The notes under the pieces are model-generated. The model saw only the letters and a program-made list of their open reading frames with translations. It did not search any database and had not been told where the DNA came from. Positions 2,213 through 9,765 of a DNA stretch of 64,000 nt are shown here, piece after piece (position 1 is the first letter of the stretch; the number at the start of each line of letters is the position of its first letter). This DNA comes from Bacillota bacterium. GTDB taxonomy: Bacteria > Bacillota > Sulfobacillia > Sulfobacillales > Sulfobacillaceae. The stretch covers positions 1 through 64,000 of the forward strand of contig JAKACM010000004.1 in the NCBI GenBank assembly GCA_021821465.1, read 5' to 3'. Position numbers and translations under genes: made by a program.

Positions 2213-2653
2213 GTGCCGACGGTAACAGTGGCGGAAATGGTGGCTGCAGCCGGGGAACCCATTTATGCGGTGCTGAACAATATGAGTGCATTTCCTCAGT
2301 TTATGAAAAATGTACAGTCGGTGACAATAATTGAGCGCGGAGAAGGATACACCCATTCCCGCTGGGTTGTTAAGTTGCAGGGAGCCACATTTTCATGGAC
2401 AGAACGAGATGACTTTTTTCCCGATGCGGGCAGAATTGCCTACCATCAAATTGAGGGTGATCTTAAAACATTTGAAGGATATTGGCAACTAGAGCCAGAT
2501 CTGGACAAAACGCGGGTTATCCTGGAAACCACATTTGAATTTGGTATGCCCATGCTTGCCGGTCTGTTAAATCCGGTGGCCAAGCTGGCATTGCGTGAAA
2601 ATGCCAGAGCCATGATTCGTGCCATAGGCGAGCAGGTGGCAAGGCCGCTTTGA
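2213..2653 (+). CDS. SRPBCC-fold (cyclase/dehydrase, START-like) protein
   Basis: A 146-residue protein of the SRPBCC superfamily, which forms a helix-grip fold with a deep hydrophobic pocket. Typical pieces are the early FPQFMKNVQSVTIIERGEGY stretch, WTERDDFF in mid-protein, and EGYWQLEPD followed by the amphipathic C-terminal helix. The ligand cannot be read from the sequence. GTG 2213 is taken as the start because GGAAAGGGGACG lies just upstream; the longer frame from 2171 has no site. It follows the aminotransferase by about 50 bases and may be co-transcribed with it. A role in lipid or quinone binding would be a guess. Confidence 0.75.
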   Translation: MPTVTVAEMVAAAGEPIYAVLNNMSAFPQFMKNVQSVTIIERGEGYTHSRWVVKLQGATFSWTERDDFFPDAGRIAYHQIEGDLKTFEGYWQLEPDLDKTRVILETTFEFGMPMLAGLLNPVAKLALRENARAMIRAIGEQVARPL

Positions 2654-2934
2654 GATGGTGTCGGGATGTTTTATGGACAATATCCTGAGCAGAAGTACCC
2701 ATAGGGGTATTTGTGATCAGGATTTTCGTGTGTACCATAGTAATATCGAGAAATCACGATAAATAATGAGAAAACGAGAGTATTTGTCGCAAAAAAATAA
2801 AAAAAGTCCGTCTTTTCCTGCATAAATGCATAAATTTGTTGACAGAAGGACTAATTCTGATAAAATTATTCTGGCCGTCGGACAGGATACTGTTGGCGAG
2901 CTCAACTCGGGTAAATAAGGGGGTTGGGAATGCG
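2654..2934 (+). promoter_or_regulatory. speH promoter and leader
   Basis: An AT-rich spacer containing a good sigma-A-type promoter: TTGACA at 2839-2844, a 16-base spacer, and TAAAAT at 2861-2866. This would start transcription near 2873 and leave a leader of about 60 bases before the speH ATG at 2935. No riboswitch core was recognised in the leader. Confidence 0.7.
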
Positions 2935-3318
2935 ATGAACGCATTGGGACGACAAATTTTGGCAGAAATTCATGGTTGTGATTCCAACGTGTTGAACGAC
3001 ATCACCAGCGTGGAGAAAATAATGGTAGAAGCTGCCTTAAGGGCAGGCGCTGAGGTGCGTGAAGTGGCTTTCCATAAATTCAGCCCGCAGGGAGTAAGCG
3101 GGGTGGTGGTCATTTCAGAATCGCATTTGGCCGTGCATACATGGCCTGAACACGGTTATGCCGCAGTGGACGTGTTTACCTGCGGTGATTCTGTCAACCC
3201 CTGGGATGCCTGTAATTACATCGTCGAACAGTTCCGCGCCCAAAATTTTACCGCTTCGGAAACCCTCCGGGGTGTCTTGGTTGAGTCTAATCTCAGTACC
3301 GAAAAGGCAGCGATTTGA
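2935..3318 (+). CDS. speH: S-adenosylmethionine decarboxylase proenzyme
   Basis: SpeH/SpeD decarboxylates SAM to the aminopropyl donor used for spermidine synthesis. The 127-residue length matches the short bacterial proenzyme of B. subtilis type. The self-cleavage site that creates the pyruvoyl group is clear in [12 protein letters not shown], between Glu62 and Ser63. His68 and Cys83 sit where the family keeps processing and catalytic residues. ATG 2935 is preceded by AAGGGGGTTGGGAATGCG, a usable ribosome-binding site; the longer frame from 2836 runs through the promoter. Aminopropyl transfer releases methylthioadenosine (MTA), the substrate of enzymes encoded 2-5 kb downstream. No spermidine synthase gene is in the window. 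Confidence 0.95.
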
Positions 3319-3338
3319 CGAGTGGGAGGCTCTTAAGA

Positions 3339-3752
3339 GTGTCACAAACATTTGTCATGGTAAAACCGGATGGTGTTAGGCGGGGTGTCGTCGGCGAAGT
3401 GATCCGCCGACTGGAAGCCAAGGGTTTGCAACTGAAAGCGATGAAACTGATTCGCATCACGCCGGAATTGGCGGCAAGGCATTATGAGGAGCATCGGGAC
3501 AAACCATTTTACGGAGAATTGATCTCCTTTATTACCTCGGGACCATCCATACCTATGGTATGGGAAGGACGTGAGGCTATTCAAGTGGCGCGTACCCTAA
3601 TGGGCGCAACGGATCCGATTAAGGCACAACCGGGTACGATTCGCGGGGACTTGGCCTTGGCTATTACGGAAAACATTGTGCATGGGTCCGACAGTGTGGA
3701 GTCTGCGGAAAGGGAAATTGCTATTTATTTCTCTGCAGAAGAAATTACTTGA
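3339..3752 (+). CDS. ndk: Nucleoside diphosphate kinase
   Basis: Transfers the gamma phosphate between nucleoside triphosphates and diphosphates through a phosphohistidine. The 137-residue chain has the family start TFVMVKPDGVRRG, the nucleotide-binding helices, and the active-site histidine in NIVHGSDSVESA (His115). GTG 3339 is chosen because GGGAGG precedes it by about nine bases; the longer in-frame TTG at 3315 overlaps the speH stop. It follows speH by 20 bases and the next gene starts four bases after its stop, so the three are likely co-transcribed. Confidence 0.95.
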   Translation: MSQTFVMVKPDGVRRGVVGEVIRRLEAKGLQLKAMKLIRITPELAARHYEEHRDKPFYGELISFITSGPSIPMVWEGREAIQVARTLMGATDPIKAQPGTIRGDLALAITENIVHGSDSVESAEREIAIYFSAEEIT

Positions 3753-3756
3753 GGTC

Positions 3757-4545
3757 ATGATCATTGTCCTCATTATTCTCCTTCTTGCGAGCGCGACTAT
3801 TTTCTATAGCGCAGTTGTAGAACCCCAGTGGATTCAACTGTCGCGTTATGCTATTGCTATACCAAATCTCCCCCAGTCTTTTGAGGGCTTTACTATCCTC
3901 CATCTATCCGATTTTCATGGGCGGGTGGGGGCTTTTGCTTTCTTGAGAAAAAATAAGATATCTGCCGACGTGGTGGCTGTGACAGGGGATTTGTTTGCTT
4001 GGAAGACATTACCCAGAAGACGAATGGCGCGCGAGCTGGACAGTCTTTACGCTCCGGATGGTGTGTATTACGTGAGCGGCAATCATGATTACAATCATGG
4101 TGAGCTGGACTTGCGACCATGGAATGTTGGCCCCCGGTTGTTAGACAACAAGGTAGTTCCCGTGGTTCGGGGAGGGGATAAGATTTGGCTTGCCGGCATC
4201 CCGGATTTAATTCAAGGGAAAGCTTCTCTCGGTTCTGTTGCCGCCGAGATTCCTCAAAAAGAGGTGGCGATTTTGTTGTCGCACCGGCCCGACGCCATTT
4301 TACTTCCCCAAAGTTCCCGCTTTAATCTTGTGTTGTCTGGTCACACCCACGGAGGCCAAGTGACGGCGTGGGGGCGCTGGGCCCCGGTACGACATACTAA
4401 AGTAGGCCACAGGTATGTGGCCGGGAAGTGGACGGGAGATCACGGCACGATTCTTGTCACCTCAAGAGGACTGGGCGAATCGGAACTTCCTATCCGGTTT
4501 GGCTCACGTCCAGAAGTCATTCATATTTCTCTTTACCGTGCATAA
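3757..4545 (+). CDS. Membrane-anchored metallophosphoesterase (YkuE/YaeI-like)
   Basis: A calcineurin-type phosphoesterase with an N-terminal membrane anchor (about residues 2-20). The metal-binding motifs appear in order: LHLSDFHG, TGDLF, SGNHDYN, LLSHRPD and SGHTHGGQ. This matches the YkuE/YaeI group, thought to act on lipid or nucleotide phosphate esters at the membrane surface. Length is 262 residues. ATG 3757 begins four bases after the ndk stop, with GAGG just upstream, suggesting translational coupling. Substrate is not readable from the sequence. Confidence 0.88.
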   Translation: MIIVLIILLLASATIFYSAVVEPQWIQLSRYAIAIPNLPQSFEGFTILHLSDFHGRVGAFAFLRKNKISADVVAVTGDLFAWKTLPRRRMARELDSLYAPDGVYYVSGNHDYNHGELDLRPWNVGPRLLDNKVVPVVRGGDKIWLAGIPDLIQGKASLGSVAAEIPQKEVAILLSHRPDAILLPQSSRFNLVLSGHTHGGQVTAWGRWAPVRHTKVGHRYVAGKWTGDHGTILVTSRGLGESELPIRFGSRPEVIHISLYRA

Positions 4546-4700
4546 GTCGTTCCACGGGCCTCATGTCAGTGTCATATGGCAAGCAAAGAGTATTTTGCGA
4601 GTCTCAGGTCATCTCTCCCGTGGCTATGAAAAGGAAGGCCTACTATTGAATGAGGAGGGAAAGCGGTGTTAGCCATTGCCAGGGTTTTCCGCACGAATCG

Positions 4701-5468
4701 ATGAAAGTAGGGATTATTGGCGGAACCGGGGTGTATGATTCGCGTTGGTTGGCCACGGCCGAAAGATTGGAGGTACAGACGCCTTACGGTGCCGTGAGCG
4801 TGACCCGAGGTCGGGTTGAGTCTTGTGAAGAGGCGGTGTATTTTTTAAACCGCCATGGCCAGGGGCATCATCTGCCTCCGCACTTGGTAAATTATCGTGC
4901 CAATATATGGGCCTTGCACCACGTTGGAGTCGAGCGCATCGTGGCCACGGCGGCTGTCGGGTCCTTAAATGCCGCCTTGTCGCCGGGAATGAGTGTGCTC
5001 TGTGATCAGTTCTTGGATTTCACCAAATTCCGCCCGGGAACCTTCTTTGAAGGCGGGACAAATGGGGTTGTTCATACCGATATGACCGAGCCCTACTGTT
5101 CCGATTTACGGGCCGTTCTGTTTGAGCATGCCGAGGCCGTGGGACTCCGTGCCGTGAACGGAGGTTGTTATGTCACCACGGAAGGTCCGCGCTTTGAAAC
5201 CCCTGCGGAAATTCGTGCATTTCGCATGCTGGGCGGGGACGTGGTGGGTATGACGAGTGTTCCGGAAGTGGTATTGGCTCGGGAATTGGGTCTGTGCTAT
5301 GCGACGGTGGCTCTGGTCACAAATTATGCCGCGGGGATGAGTCCCGATTATTTGACTCATCAGGAAGTTCTCGATCTCATGGGTCAATACCAGGGATCGC
5401 TTAACCAACTCATCCGAACGAGTCTGCCCTCCATGCAACAACATCGGGATTGTCATTGCGTGAGGTGA
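4701..5468 (+). CDS. MTAP-family nucleoside phosphorylase, probably 6-oxopurine (MTI) specific
   Basis: A 255-residue purine nucleoside phosphorylase of the methylthioadenosine phosphorylase (MTAP) branch, which cleaves a 5'-methylthio-nucleoside to free base and methylthioribose-1-phosphate. The start IIGGTGVYD and the RHGxGHxxPPHxVNYRANIWAL segment (residues 51-72) are MTAP-like. The base pocket is not: GPRFET (Glu166) and VTNYAAG (Asn208) match the Glu and Asn that purine nucleoside phosphorylases use for 6-oxopurines, whereas human MTAP has FSS and TDYD. That favours methylthioinosine over methylthioadenosine. ATG 4701 is used because homologues start at KVGIIGG; the frame upstream to 4650 lacks family sequence. 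The deaminase at 7261 could supply methylthioinosine. Family is sure, specificity is inferred. Confidence 0.85.
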   Translation: MKVGIIGGTGVYDSRWLATAERLEVQTPYGAVSVTRGRVESCEEAVYFLNRHGQGHHLPPHLVNYRANIWALHHVGVERIVATAAVGSLNAALSPGMSVLCDQFLDFTKFRPGTFFEGGTNGVVHTDMTEPYCSDLRAVLFEHAEAVGLRAVNGGCYVTTEGPRFETPAEIRAFRMLGGDVVGMTSVPEVVLARELGLCYATVALVTNYAAGMSPDYLTHQEVLDLMGQYQGSLNQLIRTSLPSMQQHRDCHCVR

Positions 5469-5843
5469 GGCGTCAGCGCATGTAGGCGGGGACAGTCTTT
5501 GGAATGCTATAATGACTTCAAGCTGACGATGGGATCGCGGTAGGGTGTGAGGTGTGGGTTTTCTTGACGGCGAGAGATCCGGATCAGTCTCAGAAAACTT
5601 GATGACGGAGGAGTGCGACACCACCTCTTCAGATTGACGACAAAGACTATGTTGGTGGGGGACTGGTGCGATGAAGCCGCATTCATTGTTTCCGGATAAC
5701 GGGCGTTCTCTTTGTTGCATACGATATGGGGGAACCCTCCGGGCCGTTCGCCTTTCCCCATGACGGGCCGGGCAGACGAGGGGTTTGAGCATTCTTGATG
5801 GGACGGCAGTAAAGAGAAGACGATTGGTGGGAGGAAAGAAAAG
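5469..5843 (+). promoter_or_regulatory. Extended -10 promoter and long structured leader of ahcY
   Basis: TGCTATAAT at 5505-5513 is a perfect extended -10 element without a clear -35. It would give a leader of about 320 nt before the ahcY start at 5844. The leader can form a 9-bp hairpin between 5726-5734 and 5753-5761 (one G-U pair). A perfect 8-bp long-range stem TTCTCTTT 5706-5713 with AAAGAGAA 5811-5818 encloses it and ends about ten bases before the ribosome-binding site at 5829-5834. A smaller hairpin GAGG-GTG/CAC-CCTC lies near 5617-5638. No known SAM or SAH riboswitch core was recognised. Confidence 0.5.
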
Positions 5844-7079
5844 ATGTCGACATTACGAAATCCGGATTTGGCTGCGCCAGGTCATGACAAGATGAATTGG
5901 GTTCGGCGCAAAATGCCCGTGCTGAATGCTCTCGGGGAAAGGTATCGGCACGATTTGCCGTTTAAAGGCCAGAAGATTGCGATATCATTGCATTTGGAAG
6001 CTAAAACCGCCATTTTAGCAGAACTTCTACATAAGGGAGGAGCCGATGTCAGTATAACCAGTTCAAACCCGTTGAGCACCCAAGATGACGTGGCTGCGGC
6101 TTTGGCCTCCCAGGGGGTTGATGTCCATGCGTTTCGTGGTGCCGATGAGAAAGAATTTGATGACTTTCAGCACAAAGTCTTAGACATAGAACCCACTCTC
6201 ATTATCGATGATGGAGGAGAATTGACCGATCGTCTGCATAGTAGCCGCCGGCAATTGGCAGCTAATGTGAAAGGGGGAGCGGAAGAAACCACGACAGGAG
6301 TAACCCGTTTAAAAGCCTTGGCGGCGCAAAAGCAATTATTGTATCCTATGGTGGCCGTGAACGACGCAGACATGAAGCATCTTTTTGACAACCAATACGG
6401 AACCGGGCAATCGACTTGGGACGGTATCATGCGCACGACTAATTTGCTGATAGCGGGAAGTACGGTGGTCGTAGCGGGTTATGGCTGGTGCGGACGAGGA
6501 GTTGCGGACCGGTCCCGAGGTTTGGGGGCCCGAGTGATTGTCACGGAAGTGAACCCGATCAGAGCCAATGAAGCCTTAATGGATGGACATCAAGTGATGA
6601 GGATGGATGAGGCGGCATCCTACGGAGACTTTTTTGTGACGGTGACCGGGAATCGCGATGTGATTGGCCCTCAACATTTTACTAAAATGAAAGACGGTGC
6701 CGTCCTGGCTAATGCCGGCCATTTTGATGTGGAGGTCGATGTCAAAGGCTTACGCACATTGGCCACGCAAGTCATTGCGGGACGAAACGAAAACGTTCAA
6801 GGATTCGTTCTGCCCACGGGCCAGGTATTATGGTTATTGGCTGAGGGGCGCCTAGTCAATCTGGCTGCCGGGGACGGACATCCCGTGGAGATTATGGATT
6901 TGACTTTTGGACTGCAAGCATTGTCCTTGGAATATTTGCTGAAACACCCCTTGGCACCGGGCCTTTATCCCGTCGACCCCGCTGTCGATACCTGGGTTGC
7001 AGAAATTCGCTTGAAAGCTTTGAACGTCGCTATCGACCAGTTGACCGCCGATCAAGCACACTATATGGCGTCGTGGTAA
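5844..7079 (+). CDS. ahcY: AhcY-type NAD-dependent hydrolase (S-adenosyl- or S-inosyl-homocysteine hydrolase)
   Basis: A 411-residue enzyme of the adenosylhomocysteinase family, splitting SAH (or its inosine analogue) to nucleoside and homocysteine with a bound NAD. The substrate domain carries SSNPLSTQDDVAAAL, and the NAD fold shows VVAGYGWCGRGVA (GxGxxG) with the VTEVNPIRANEALMDGH region. Length matches the short thermophile/archaeal type rather than the longer eukaryal form. At residues 50-54 it reads HLEAK: canonical enzymes have HxTxE, with the Glu accepting the adenine amino group, while here it is HxExK. That change is associated with preference for S-inosylhomocysteine in archaeal relatives, as I recall. 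ATG 5844 follows GGGAGGAAAG. The MTA/SAH deaminase gene lies downstream. Confidence 0.9.
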   Translation: MSTLRNPDLAAPGHDKMNWVRRKMPVLNALGERYRHDLPFKGQKIAISLHLEAKTAILAELLHKGGADVSITSSNPLSTQDDVAAALASQGVDVHAFRGADEKEFDDFQHKVLDIEPTLIIDDGGELTDRLHSSRRQLAANVKGGAEETTTGVTRLKALAAQKQLLYPMVAVNDADMKHLFDNQYGTGQSTWDGIMRTTNLLIAGSTVVVAGYGWCGRGVADRSRGLGARVIVTEVNPIRANEALMDGHQVMRMDEAASYGDFFVTVTGNRDVIGPQHFTKMKDGAVLANAGHFDVEVDVKGLRTLATQVIAGRNENVQGFVLPTGQVLWLLAEGRLVNLAAGDGHPVEIMDLTFGLQALSLEYLLKHPLAPGLYPVDPAVDTWVAEIRLKALNVAIDQLTADQAHYMASW

Positions 7080-7260
7080 TCGTCACACCCACACCGACAG
7101 ACGGTGTTGAGCGCCAAGATGAGAGCGGCGCCAGGCATCTATGTCCCCAAAGCCGCGGGGTACTGATGTCTTTTTTGACTCAGGATACGAAGAATTGCCG
7201 GGTGGCATGATTGTCCGGGAGAGGGACCGATAAATTGCGCCTCATGAAAGGAAGTGGAGC

Positions 7261-8541
7261 ATGCTCTATCGACTGGAAACCGATACAGTTCTCACAATGG
7301 ATAACGCGTGGCATATTTTCCGTCCGGGTCAAATCACATGGCAAGACGGGAGGATTGTGAGCGTGGGACCCATCAACCATGATGCGGCTCGGGTAGACCA
7401 AGTGATCAAAATTCCGGGGGGAATTTTGTTGCCGGGATTCTACAACGGTCATAATCATGCCGCCATGACATTGTTTCGCGGTTTAGCCGATGACAGTCCC
7501 TTCTTCGAATGGCTTCAGAAACATATTTGGCCCCGCGAGGCGAAATTGACCGCCGAGGACATCTATTGGGGAACTCTCTTGGCTGCGGTCGAGATGATCA
7601 AATCCGGCACGGTCGGGTTTGCCGATATGTATTTTGAGATGGACGCCGTGGCTAAGGCAACACAGGACAGCGGGCTGCGAGGGTGGTTAAGCCGGGGATT
7701 AGTGGGGCAGGAGGACGGCGGGTTGGACAAGTTGTCCGAGGCGACGGAATTTGCCGATCGCTTTCACCAAGATCCGCTGATCACCCCAATGCTCGGCCCT
7801 CATGCCCCATACACCTGTTCACCGGATTATTTGGCACGGGTGGCCGATAAGGCTAAGGCGCATCACTTGGGCGTGCATATTCATCTCGCGGAAAGTCAAG
7901 CGGAGATGGACGATTTACGCGAGAAGTTTGGGCTGACCCCGATTCAAATCGCGGCTCAGGCGGGACTTTTGCAAGTACCCGTTCTGATTGCCCATGGAGT
8001 CCATATTACCGAGGAGGATCTTCCTTATCTGGAAAATCTCCGAGGCGGGGTCGTGTCCTGCCCGATTAGCAATGCAAAATTGGGCAACGGGATATTGCCC
8101 TATGCGATGTTGACGCAGGCCGAGATTGCGGTGGGTCTGGGCACCGATGGCGCGGCGTCAACCAATTCGCTGGATATGTTCCAGGAAATGAAAGCCATGG
8201 CCTGGATGCAGAAAGTGCAAGACGGACACCCGGAAAGGTTCCGCGCGCAAAATGCGTTAACCATGGCGACGCGGGGCACGGCCGCTGTGCTCGGGTTTCC
8301 CGGGGGCATTTTGGAGAGTGGGCGTCCGGCTGACTTTATTGTGGTCGATTCCCAAAAAGCGCATATGACACCCGATCTGGATAGTGTGGCGAATATCGTC
8401 TATGCGGCCACCGGTGCCGATGTGTTGTACACGGTGGTGAATGGGAAAATTCTACTGGCGGAAGGCCTGTTAACAACATTAAATGAAGCCGACATCCGAC
8501 AGCAAGCCCAAGCACGGGCCGAGGCCCTGATGGCGGAATAG
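7261..8541 (+). CDS. mtaD: 5-methylthioadenosine / S-adenosylhomocysteine deaminase
   Basis: An amidohydrolase-superfamily deaminase of 426 residues that converts MTA and SAH to methylthioinosine and S-inosylhomocysteine. The metal site begins with NGHNHAAM (His64, His66); later pieces are the GPHAPYTCSPDYL segment, VHIHLAESQAEMD, IAHGVHI and LGTDGAASTNSLDMFQEMK, all characteristic of the MtaD/TrzN group. The chain closes with the small beta domain ADFIVVD. ATG 7261 follows GAAAGGAAGTGGAGC. The 180-base gap after ahcY holds no recognised signal. Its products would be the preferred substrates predicted for the two preceding enzymes, so the three read as one salvage pathway. Confidence 0.92.
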   Translation: MLYRLETDTVLTMDNAWHIFRPGQITWQDGRIVSVGPINHDAARVDQVIKIPGGILLPGFYNGHNHAAMTLFRGLADDSPFFEWLQKHIWPREAKLTAEDIYWGTLLAAVEMIKSGTVGFADMYFEMDAVAKATQDSGLRGWLSRGLVGQEDGGLDKLSEATEFADRFHQDPLITPMLGPHAPYTCSPDYLARVADKAKAHHLGVHIHLAESQAEMDDLREKFGLTPIQIAAQAGLLQVPVLIAHGVHITEEDLPYLENLRGGVVSCPISNAKLGNGILPYAMLTQAEIAVGLGTDGAASTNSLDMFQEMKAMAWMQKVQDGHPERFRAQNALTMATRGTAAVLGFPGGILESGRPADFIVVDSQKAHMTPDLDSVANIVYAATGADVLYTVVNGKILLAEGLLTTLNEADIRQQAQARAEALMAE

Positions 8542-8571
8542 CGATCATTTTTGAGAGAAGTGTGATACCAT

Positions 8572-8982
8572 TTGTCTGAGTTGCCAGAGAATAACTGTTT
8601 TGTCTGCGGTGAACGAAATGAACGAGGAATGCATGTTCATTTCACGTATGTGCCGGCACACCGCCAAGTCTGGGCCGAGACTAATGTCGAGGCATTATGG
8701 CAGGGATTTACAGGCATTGTACATGGGGGAATTCTGGCCGGTCTTCTTGACGATGCGATGTGGCACGCCTTGTGGTATGAAACTCATGTGGTCACAATGA
8801 CGGCCGAGATGCATGTGCGCTATCACAAACCGGCCAAAATTGGAATGCCCTTGACGATTGTGGGGGCGGTAACCGAGTCTGGGCGGCGTATGGCTAAGGC
8901 CGAGGCACGTATCGAACAAGAGCAGGTTACTGTGGCGACTGCACAAGGGGTGTTCTTGCCCTCCAAAGGACTTATGGAATGA
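8572..8982 (+). CDS. Hotdog-fold thioesterase (PaaI/4HBT-like)
   Basis: A 136-residue single hotdog domain, probably an acyl-CoA thioesterase. The start NCFVCGERNERGMHVHF and the central FTGIVHGGILAGLLDDAMW carry the HGG turn and the acidic residue on the long helix used by PaaI-type enzymes. The start TTG 8572 follows GAGAGAAG. It lies 30 bases after mtaD and may be in the same transcript. The thioester substrate is unknown and a link to SAM recycling is not evident. Confidence 0.82.
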   Translation: MSELPENNCFVCGERNERGMHVHFTYVPAHRQVWAETNVEALWQGFTGIVHGGILAGLLDDAMWHALWYETHVVTMTAEMHVRYHKPAKIGMPLTIVGAVTESGRRMAKAEARIEQEQVTVATAQGVFLPSKGLME

Positions 8983-9063
8983 AAGAGACGAAACCGACGT
9001 TGGGCATGGTTTCAAACAGCGGCCTAAGCTCTTGCGGCATGAGACTTTATCGGAAAATTCCTC

Positions 9064-9765
9064 TTAGCCTTTTATTCCCACATATAAGGCCCGATTCAAT
9101 GTGAGATCAAGGCACGCTGCTTGGAATCCCGCCTCCTCAAGCCAGCTCACGGTTGTCTCGACAGAAAGCGGATAATCGTGTTGACTGGCGAGTCGTTCGA
9201 GAAAGTATTGGCCACTCCATCCACTCTTGATGGCGCTCTGGTTTTCTAGCCAATTCCAAGTTGCCGCGTAAACACTGTTCAGCTTTGGCCCGTCGATATT
9301 CACCCGGTCCATAAGGAGAAACAAGCCGTTATTTTTCACGAGGTCGAACACCCGACCATAAATCTGCTTTTGTGTTTCCGGTTCGAGGTGATGTAAGGTC
9401 TGCACGGCGATAACGTGGGAAAAAGCGTTGTGAGAAAATCCGAGTGTGTCAATGTCCGCAAGCTCATGGTGATAGAGCACGCACTGTGTATTCCTAAGGG
9501 TTGTTTTCCTTAGTCGTTCTCGCGCGATCTCTAACATGGCGGAAGAATGATCAATGCCCACAATGTTGACATCCGCTCTTTTGAGAAACAATCTTTCCTC
9601 GACTTGTGCCGAGCCTATGCCCAGGTCCAAGATCGTATCGCCGGATTGACAACGTTCGCTCAAAAGCGTGATTAATAAGGAGAGCTGGTTCTCACGAGAG
9701 GGGTTTCCACGAGATGCGCTTTCATCCCATGATTTTACGAAATCGACATTGTGCCAATCTTCCAT
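9064..9765 (-). CDS. Class I SAM-dependent methyltransferase
   Basis: A 233-residue Rossmann-fold methyltransferase. Motif I is ILDLGIGSAQVEERL, followed by the acidic end of beta-2 in VGIDHSSAMLEIAR and the motif IV-like VIAVQTLHHLEPE. The substrate is unknown; the layout resembles small-molecule or quinone-type enzymes. The start is ATG at 9765 on the minus strand because GAGGAGG sits six bases before it, so the seven extra codons of the longer frame encode the ribosome-binding site rather than protein. The gene is convergent with the hotdog gene. As a SAM consumer it would feed the SAH-recycling enzymes, but so would any methyltransferase. Confidence 0.85.
   Translation of the reverse strand: MEDWHNVDFVKSWDESASRGNPSRENQLSLLITLLSERCQSGDTILDLGIGSAQVEERLFLKRADVNIVGIDHSSAMLEIARERLRKTTLRNTQCVLYHHELADIDTLGFSHNAFSHVIAVQTLHHLEPETQKQIYGRVFDLVKNNGLFLLMDRVNIDGPKLNSVYAATWNWLENQSAIKSGWSGQYFLERLASQHDYPLSVETTVSWLEEAGFQAACLDLTLNRALYVGIKG

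Follow-up and report, generated by a model that had tools for sequence, protein, structure and literature searches.

In which order does a bacterium take apart the two by-products of S-adenosylmethionine (SAM), 5'-methylthioadenosine (MTA) and S-adenosylhomocysteine (SAH), when a phosphorylase, a hydrolase, and a deaminase are encoded side by side? The question is raised by the first 64,000 nucleotides of contig JAKACM010000004.1 (GenBank assembly GCA_021821465.1), from a Bacillota bacterium of the class Sulfobacillia; this whole stretch is referred to here as the window. As an earlier reading made from the nucleotide letters had claimed (the sequence-only reading), three neighboring open reading frames (ORFs) at positions 4701 to 8541, all on the forward strand, encode an MTAP-family phosphorylase, an AhcY-family hydrolase, and an MTA/SAH-type deaminase (MtaD). 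The trio is part of a one-strand run headed by speH and ndk. Judging from the residues that line the base pockets, the block probably carries out a deaminate-first salvage of both MTA and SAH.

In the proposed route, the amidohydrolase would convert MTA, which arises from decarboxylated SAM during polyamine synthesis (speH), to 5'-methylthioinosine (MTI), and SAH, the product of methyltransferases, to S-inosylhomocysteine (SIH). SIH would then be split by the AhcY, giving inosine and homocysteine; Glu52 and Lys54 of the HxExK motif would recognize the hypoxanthine ring at N1 and at the C6 oxygen. The phosphorylase, with Glu and Asn in its pocket, would cleave MTI to hypoxanthine and methylthioribose-1-phosphate, the latter entering methionine salvage via MtnA encoded elsewhere, and would probably also cleave the inosine from the SIH step.

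The three enzymes of the block

The window AhcY reads H50-L-E52-A-K54, which is HxExK in place of HxTxE, just as the sequence-only reading had stated. It passes the adenosylhomocysteinase models TIGR00936 (534.4 against a cut-off of 497.6) and NF004005 (616.6 against 275), as well as PF05221 and PF00670. Its closest solved relatives are the enzymes of Thermotoga maritima (3x2e, 464 bits) and Pyrococcus furiosus (7r37, 459 bits), both HxExK, followed by 7r3a (448 bits), deposited as an S-inosylhomocysteine hydrolase. With 411 amino acids it is archaeal-type in length, aligning near end to end with 3x2e and 7r37 without a large gap; a 40-residue segment is absent, the C terminus is short, and all three proteins end in SW.

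The significance of this motif comes from published enzymology. Among 18 SAH hydrolases (SAHHs) assayed, the six HxExK enzymes prefer SIH and the HxTxE(Q) enzymes prefer SAH, and structures place the Glu and Lys of HxExK at the hypoxanthine ring (Koeppl 2024, PMC10978960). T. maritima, which has a deaminase, supplies the only bacterial HxExK enzyme in that assay table, and HxExK AhcYs are linked in print to euryarchaea and closely related thermophilic bacteria (PMC10978960); a 2026 review restates the HxExK/SIH findings (PMC13406329). We infer the substrate preferences of all three window enzymes; a preference for SIH is published for the HxExK enzymes of T. maritima and of euryarchaea.

The sequence-only reading had also described a phosphorylase with a 6-oxopurine-type pocket, and the alignment agrees: Glu166 and Asn208 are the same letters as in the Pseudomonas aeruginosa MTI phosphorylase (3ozb), which also has AAG after the pocket Asn, whereas Ser and Asp occupy these positions in the MTAPs 1v4n and 2a8y. 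In NCBIfam the protein passes both the MTAP model TIGR01694 (283.6 against 274.85) and the methylthioinosine-phosphorylase model NF006599 (257.4 against 223) but no purine nucleoside phosphorylase (PNP) model, and its best solved relatives are MTAPs and MTI phosphorylases (MTIPs), not PNPs. The pocket comes in two discrete forms, as 81 of 111 distinct MTAP-family sequences read Glu/Asn, 30 read Ser/Asp, and none is mixed. Two candidate markers were tried and rejected. One position of the family, which we take to be the counterpart of the 5'-OH-binding His257 of human PNP, might have discriminated inosine from MTI, but it is His in both pocket types (79 of 81 Glu/Asn and 28 of 30 Ser/Asp sequences). 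Glu/Asn on its own does not prove a deaminase-coupled MTI enzyme, as genomes with an HxTxE AhcY carry it too.

The deaminase is placed by NCBIfam in the MTA/SAH/5'-deoxyadenosine deaminase group but falls below every equivalog cut-off, including those for N-ethylammeline chlorohydrolase (the best-scoring model, 417.5 against 609), 5'-deoxyadenosine deaminase (PRK07228; 286.6 against 522), and MTA/SAH deaminase (266.9 against 779). A missed equivalog cut-off is a matter of the model threshold and not a biological feature; it makes the name of the deaminase less certain. T. maritima TM0936 (1p1m) is a homologue at 230.6 bits. H64, H66, H208, E211, and H245 are conserved in 72 of 72 deaminase copies found near an AhcY and D296 in 71; these six are presumably the residues that bind metal and carry out catalysis in amidohydrolases of this group. 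Presumably E84, R136, and R148 of TM0936 contact the substrate tail. In the alignment, E93 matches E84 and R145 matches R136, but K157 stands opposite R148; among the 72 copies, E93 is kept in 71 and R145 in 63, and position 157 is variable.

Motif, deaminase, and phosphorylase type across the Bacillota

We searched 299 genomes of the phylum for AhcY, MtaD, Glu/Asn phosphorylase, and Ser/Asp MTAP, and for one AhcY in each of 169 genomes read the motif and surroundings: HxExK in 146, HxTxE in 10, HxSxK in 9, and HxTxK in 4. The co-occurrence of HxExK AhcY, Glu/Asn MTAP, and MtaD, put forward as a check on the sequence-only reading, was found. Of the 159 HxxxK genomes, 148 have MtaD at E ≤ 1e-75 and 156 at E ≤ 1e-55; none of the 10 HxTxE genomes has it at either threshold. 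Ser/Asp MTAP shows the opposite pattern (10/10 HxTxE, 10/159 HxxxK); its type was read from the residues themselves in each of the 10 HxTxE genomes and elsewhere assigned by score, across a gap from 308 to 255 bits.

Physical linkage, within about 5 kb of the AhcY gene, was counted for 148 HxExK loci, two of which are second or split copies. An MTAP-family gene is found in 67 of them (Glu/Asn in all 67), MtaD in 70, and both in 58. Of the 10 HxTxE loci, 5 have a nearby MTAP-family gene (Ser/Asp in 4 and Glu/Asn in 1), and none has MtaD. These counts are lower bounds, as some stretches stop at contig ends and 12 loci have 1.5-kb flanks only. In a separate observation, one AhcY (L063/L069, G006:C22:231344-232571) lies in two frames that abut at one point, through an assembly error or as a broken gene.

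The nine HxSxK AhcYs belong to one family (f34; loci L045, L046, L048, L049, L052, L056, L207, L215, and L220), and seven of their genomes have both MtaD and Glu/Asn MTAP; the remaining two genomes are 84 to 85% complete. The parts of the literature consulted (Koeppl 2024 and reviews) contained no assay of an HxSxK AhcY. HxTxK was read at loci L047, L068, L226, L230, and L231 (genomes G052, G091, G005, and G046).

Within the window's class, 151 genomes were searched and 38 lower-scoring, unread AhcYs were chosen, their motifs being predicted beforehand from the MtaD state. Thirty-five of the 38 predictions were correct: HxTxE in 22 of 24 cases without MtaD, and HxxxK in 13 of 14 with MtaD. These 22 class genomes are classified as HxTxE without MtaD on the AhcY motif and MtaD only. 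At 28 further class loci, the top-scoring ones, Glu/Asn MTAP, an AhcY reading HLEAK, and MtaD occur together in 28 of 28, so the block is more than chance. Two second AhcY copies were read alongside the prediction set (L433, G370:C1:493300-497000; L434, G382:C27:24300-28000). Both are HxTxE and adjoin an MTAP of the Ser type, with about 68% identity to the Ser/Asp query across 191 residues. In G370 and G382 another AhcY scores higher and shares its contig with MtaD; these genomes seem to carry both salvage sets.

From these data we consider it rather likely that Bacillota, mesophiles included, dispose of SAM by-products by one of two matched sets that are switched as a unit, with some genomes holding both. 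The adenine set would comprise HxTxE AhcY and Ser/Asp MTAP without a deaminase, and the inosine set HxxxK AhcY and MtaD, usually with a Glu/Asn phosphorylase and often in one block, HxSxK and HxTxK being a further inosine-reading form of the pocket. If so, most Bacillota proteins named adenosylhomocysteinase would be SIH hydrolases whose names mislead on substrate, and methylation in much of the phylum would give inosine, not adenosine. The two matched gene sets would also provide a natural test of base specificity shifting together in two unrelated folds.

Several observations weigh against the deaminate-first salvage proposed for the window. The trio lies within about 5 kb in only 58 of the 148 HxExK loci, and in the four HxTxK genomes, all with MtaD, no MTAP-family gene was found close by. 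Seven of the 10 HxTxE genomes, all without MtaD, also carry a Glu/Asn phosphorylase beside the adenine-type MTAP, so the pocket alone does not imply methylthioinosine. In the class, G351 is HxTxE despite a good MtaD on another contig, and G424 is HxExK with an adjoining Glu/Asn MTAP but no MtaD found; G440 was miscalled, being HxExK with an adjoining MtaD that was partly matched and below threshold. A further six genomes (G388, G412, G411, G366, G342, and G459) are HxExK-like by AhcY score only, with MtaD absent or weaker than 1e-75. HxExK enzymes retain some SAH cleavage (Table 1 of PMC10978960), and in P. aeruginosa MTA deaminase and MTIP coexist with a SAH-preferring AhcY, so the motif link is not universal.

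The residual SAH activity also speaks for an alternative in which the AhcY acts on SAH directly in the cell and the deaminase serves only MTA and 5'-deoxyadenosine. Also in its favor, a good deaminase match without any match to AhcY occurs in some of the genomes surveyed (e.g., G021, G042, and G049), and for the window deaminase PRK07228 outscores the MTA/SAH deaminase model, neither passing. However, we regard it as unlikely, as it leaves unexplained why the AhcY motif tracks the deaminase, both in the phylum survey and in the class predictions.

Kinship is a further point against the deaminate-first explanation. On an unrooted AhcY tree (FastTree), a single starred branch sets HxExK apart; the 23 rows with HxTxE, HxTxK, or HxSxK make up one group, likewise starred, inside which the 13 HxTxK and HxSxK rows cluster (98). 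The change between HxTxE and Lys occurred about two times, with MtaD going along. There are only two independent pairs, changing in the same direction in 1.8 of 2 on average and never in the opposite one, and significance is unreachable with that number. The Fisher values of 9e-11 (MtaD), 5e-11 (Ser/Asp MTAP), and 3e-7 (prediction set) ignore kinship and therefore overstate the evidence by treating genomes as independent. With HxExK on one side of one branch, the co-variation could reflect shared ancestry only, a single AhcY lineage inherited with its host genomes, with motif and deaminase functionally unconnected. We hold this to be very unlikely, although it fits the small number of contrasts: the 10 HxTxE genomes are spread over 9 of the surveyed families, and the HxTxK and HxSxK AhcYs group with HxTxE yet keep the Lys, with MtaD in 11 of 13. 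Moreover, 78 of 148 HxExK loci show no MtaD within roughly 5 kb of the hydrolase gene, so the deaminase is not a mere linked passenger.

Source genome and known systems

The source genome (4.96 Mb, 199 contigs) is estimated to be 98.16% complete and 5.11% contaminated; that the block is a contaminant is disfavored because the gene order is the same in relatives. In a PF01048 search of the genome, the window phosphorylase was the only ordinary member; a second, weak match is a 368-amino-acid ORF with a lipoprotein-like start (L034 1294-2400, reverse strand, G000:C68; 26.4 bits against a cut-off of 25.1), which may be an exported protein resembling PNP or MTAN. The search found no MTAN or SAH nucleosidase, and an adenine-type MTAP query found no Ser/Asp MTAP, its single match (5.4e-57) having a Glu/Asn-type score and fitting the window gene. 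The gene for methylthioribose-1-phosphate isomerase, mtnA, is present on another contig (G000:C171), between ORFs that we take to be pdxT- and serS-like. The deaminate-first gene set is thus complete by gene presence, with the three enzymes and MtnA present and a SAH nucleosidase not found. Since the only ordinary PNP-superfamily gene found is that of the window, no nucleosidase exit for SAH was found, and on the MtnA route from MTA the window enzyme is the only phosphorylase found to feed MtnA. It is the only candidate found in this genome for both MTI and inosine cleavage.

This double role bears on a second alternative, which is compatible with the deaminate-first explanation: the Glu/Asn enzyme may be a general 6-oxopurine nucleoside phosphorylase acting mainly on inosine from SIH and on guanosine, with MTI a side substrate. 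We treat this as a tentative possibility. Its standing as the only ordinary PNP-superfamily gene in the genome and the Glu/Asn copies kept by HxTxE genomes are both in its favor, as is Methanocaldococcus jannaschii MtiP, a broad enzyme that accepts six purine nucleosides (PMC6302742). Against it, the window protein passes the MTIP model and no PNP model, its nearest structures are MTAPs and MTIPs, and MtnA is present in a genome in which no other enzyme making methylthioribose-1-phosphate was found.

The predicted deaminate-first salvage has three known counterparts and one mirror image. In M. jannaschii, DadD, SIH hydrolase, and MtiP (EC 3.5.4.41, 3.13.1.9) have the same three activities as are predicted for the window: deamination of SAH, MTA, and 5'-deoxyadenosine, cleavage of SIH, and phosphorolysis of the 6-oxo nucleosides. 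M. jannaschii is an archaeon, and the window holds a bacterial one-strand run with speH and ndk. In T. maritima, SAHH (3x2e) is a bacterial HxExK enzyme like the window AhcY and prefers SIH, TM0936 is the homologous deaminase, and an MTAN homologue is present, whereas none was found in the source genome. P. aeruginosa deaminates MTA before phosphorolysis (2018 methionine salvage review, PMC6302742) and shares with the window this handling of MTA and a Glu/Asn phosphorylase, but its AhcY prefers SAH with some SIH activity (PMC10978960), unlike the predicted window AhcY, and P. aeruginosa is not known to send SAH by way of SIH. The classical adenine route, with HxTxE AhcY, Ser/Asp MTAP, and no deaminase, uses the same two families in the same metabolic role; with pockets set for adenine and without MtaD, it is the mirror image of the window block and is seen in 10 of 10 HxTxE genomes. 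The route genes are not known to be linked in M. jannaschii, nor are the SAHH and deaminase genes in T. maritima.

The chemistry and a bacterial example are already known, and the pathway is of a known kind. The enzymology of HxExK proteins and the co-variation across genomes support the deaminate-first part of the sequence-only reading; its claim of novelty went too far, as the SAH branch was already described for T. maritima and all three activities for M. jannaschii. In the literature searched (subscription papers being outside its scope), we found no mention of the gene linkage, of the spread in Bacillota such as Paenibacillus and Selenomonas, or of the alternation of HxTxE/Ser-Asp with HxxxK/Glu-Asn.

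The bacterial block that includes speH, taken by the sequence-only reading for a new combination, is not unique to this genome: the block recurs in many of the Bacillota surveyed, and the speH lead-in is conserved in the class. An alignment-based scan of named genomes, seeded with HxExK sequences, was evaluated for the best 80 of 594 confirmed stretches. HxExK was read in 80 of 80, a figure made uninformative on the frequency of other motifs by the seeding and best-match selection, and MtaD lies inside the stretch in 27. Hosts among these best 80 include Moorella (Moorella mulderi), Selenomonas, Paenibacillus, Brevibacillus, Alicyclobacillus, Heliophilum, and gut Clostridia and metagenome-assembled genomes (MAGs). 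In 33 genomes taken from them and searched, MtaD is present at E ≤ 1e-75 in 26. The window and 10 of 10 examined relatives, seven of them class genomes and three named MAGs, have speH and ndk upstream of MTAP-AhcY-MtaD, and each of the 10 keeps ndk between the speH and MTAP genes; by their MtaD coordinates, the three MAGs match members of the class. Within the stretches read, no genome outside the class has speH near the block. In the genomes sampled, the speH/ndk lead-in is conserved within a single class and looks specific to it.

Layout of the locus

The features of the locus are collected in Table 1.

Table 1. Features of the salvage block and its surroundings, in window coordinates
Feature	Position	Strand	Basis or remark
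Promoter-like site TTGACA-16-TAAAAT	2839..2866	+	Consensus scan only; 11/12, TG before second hexamer; just upstream of speH
speH, S-adenosylmethionine decarboxylase	2935..3318	+	TIGR03330, 150.5 bits against cut-off 75.65
ndk, nucleoside diphosphate kinase	3315..3752	+	NF001908, 204.3 against 155
Calcineurin-like phosphoesterase	3757..4545	+	PF00149
MTAP-family phosphorylase, 6-oxopurine pocket; predicted MTI and inosine phosphorylase	4701..5468	+	Motif and models
Codon of Glu166 (Ser in adenine-type MTAP)	5196..5198	+	Context ...GPRFET...
Codon of Asn208 (Asp in adenine-type MTAP)	5322..5324	+	Context ...VTNYAAG...
AhcY family, HxExK type; predicted S-inosylhomocysteine hydrolase	5844..7079	+	Models and motif
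Codons of H50-L51-E52-A53-K54, HxExK base-recognition motif	5991..6005	+	Sequence
Amidohydrolase, predicted MTA/SAH deaminase (MtaD/DadD type)	7261..8541	+	Models and structure relatives
Hotdog thioesterase	8572..8982	+	TIGR00369, PF03061; retained in 4 nearest relatives examined

The sequence-only reading had called the cassette compact. The three genes are neighbors, but they are loosely spaced: the gaps of 375 bp (5469-5843) between the phosphorylase gene and ahcY and of 181 bp between ahcY and the deaminase gene compare with 58 to 107 and 29 to 69 bp, by BLAST ends, in three close relatives. No repeats of 12 bases or more were found in the two gaps. A search for riboswitches and regulatory RNAs found nothing in the window, the 375-bp gap included, that reached the Rfam gathering level, and at E ≤ 1 it gave only two matches in 2600-9100, both at chance level. 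Over the same interval, seven sigma-70-like sites were found against 5.9 expected in shuffles; the listed site is the best, and the other six score 9/12.

Three start positions differ from the longest frames. The listed ORF of speH begins at 2836 and that of the phosphoesterase at 3676, and we read the ATGs at 2935 and 3757 as the likely starts; the phosphorylase, with its ATG at 4701, has a longer in-frame start at 4650. Among the 10 relatives examined, the phosphoesterase is matched in L072 and L286-L288 and unmatched in the other six. The hotdog thioesterase downstream of the deaminase is probably unrelated to the block.

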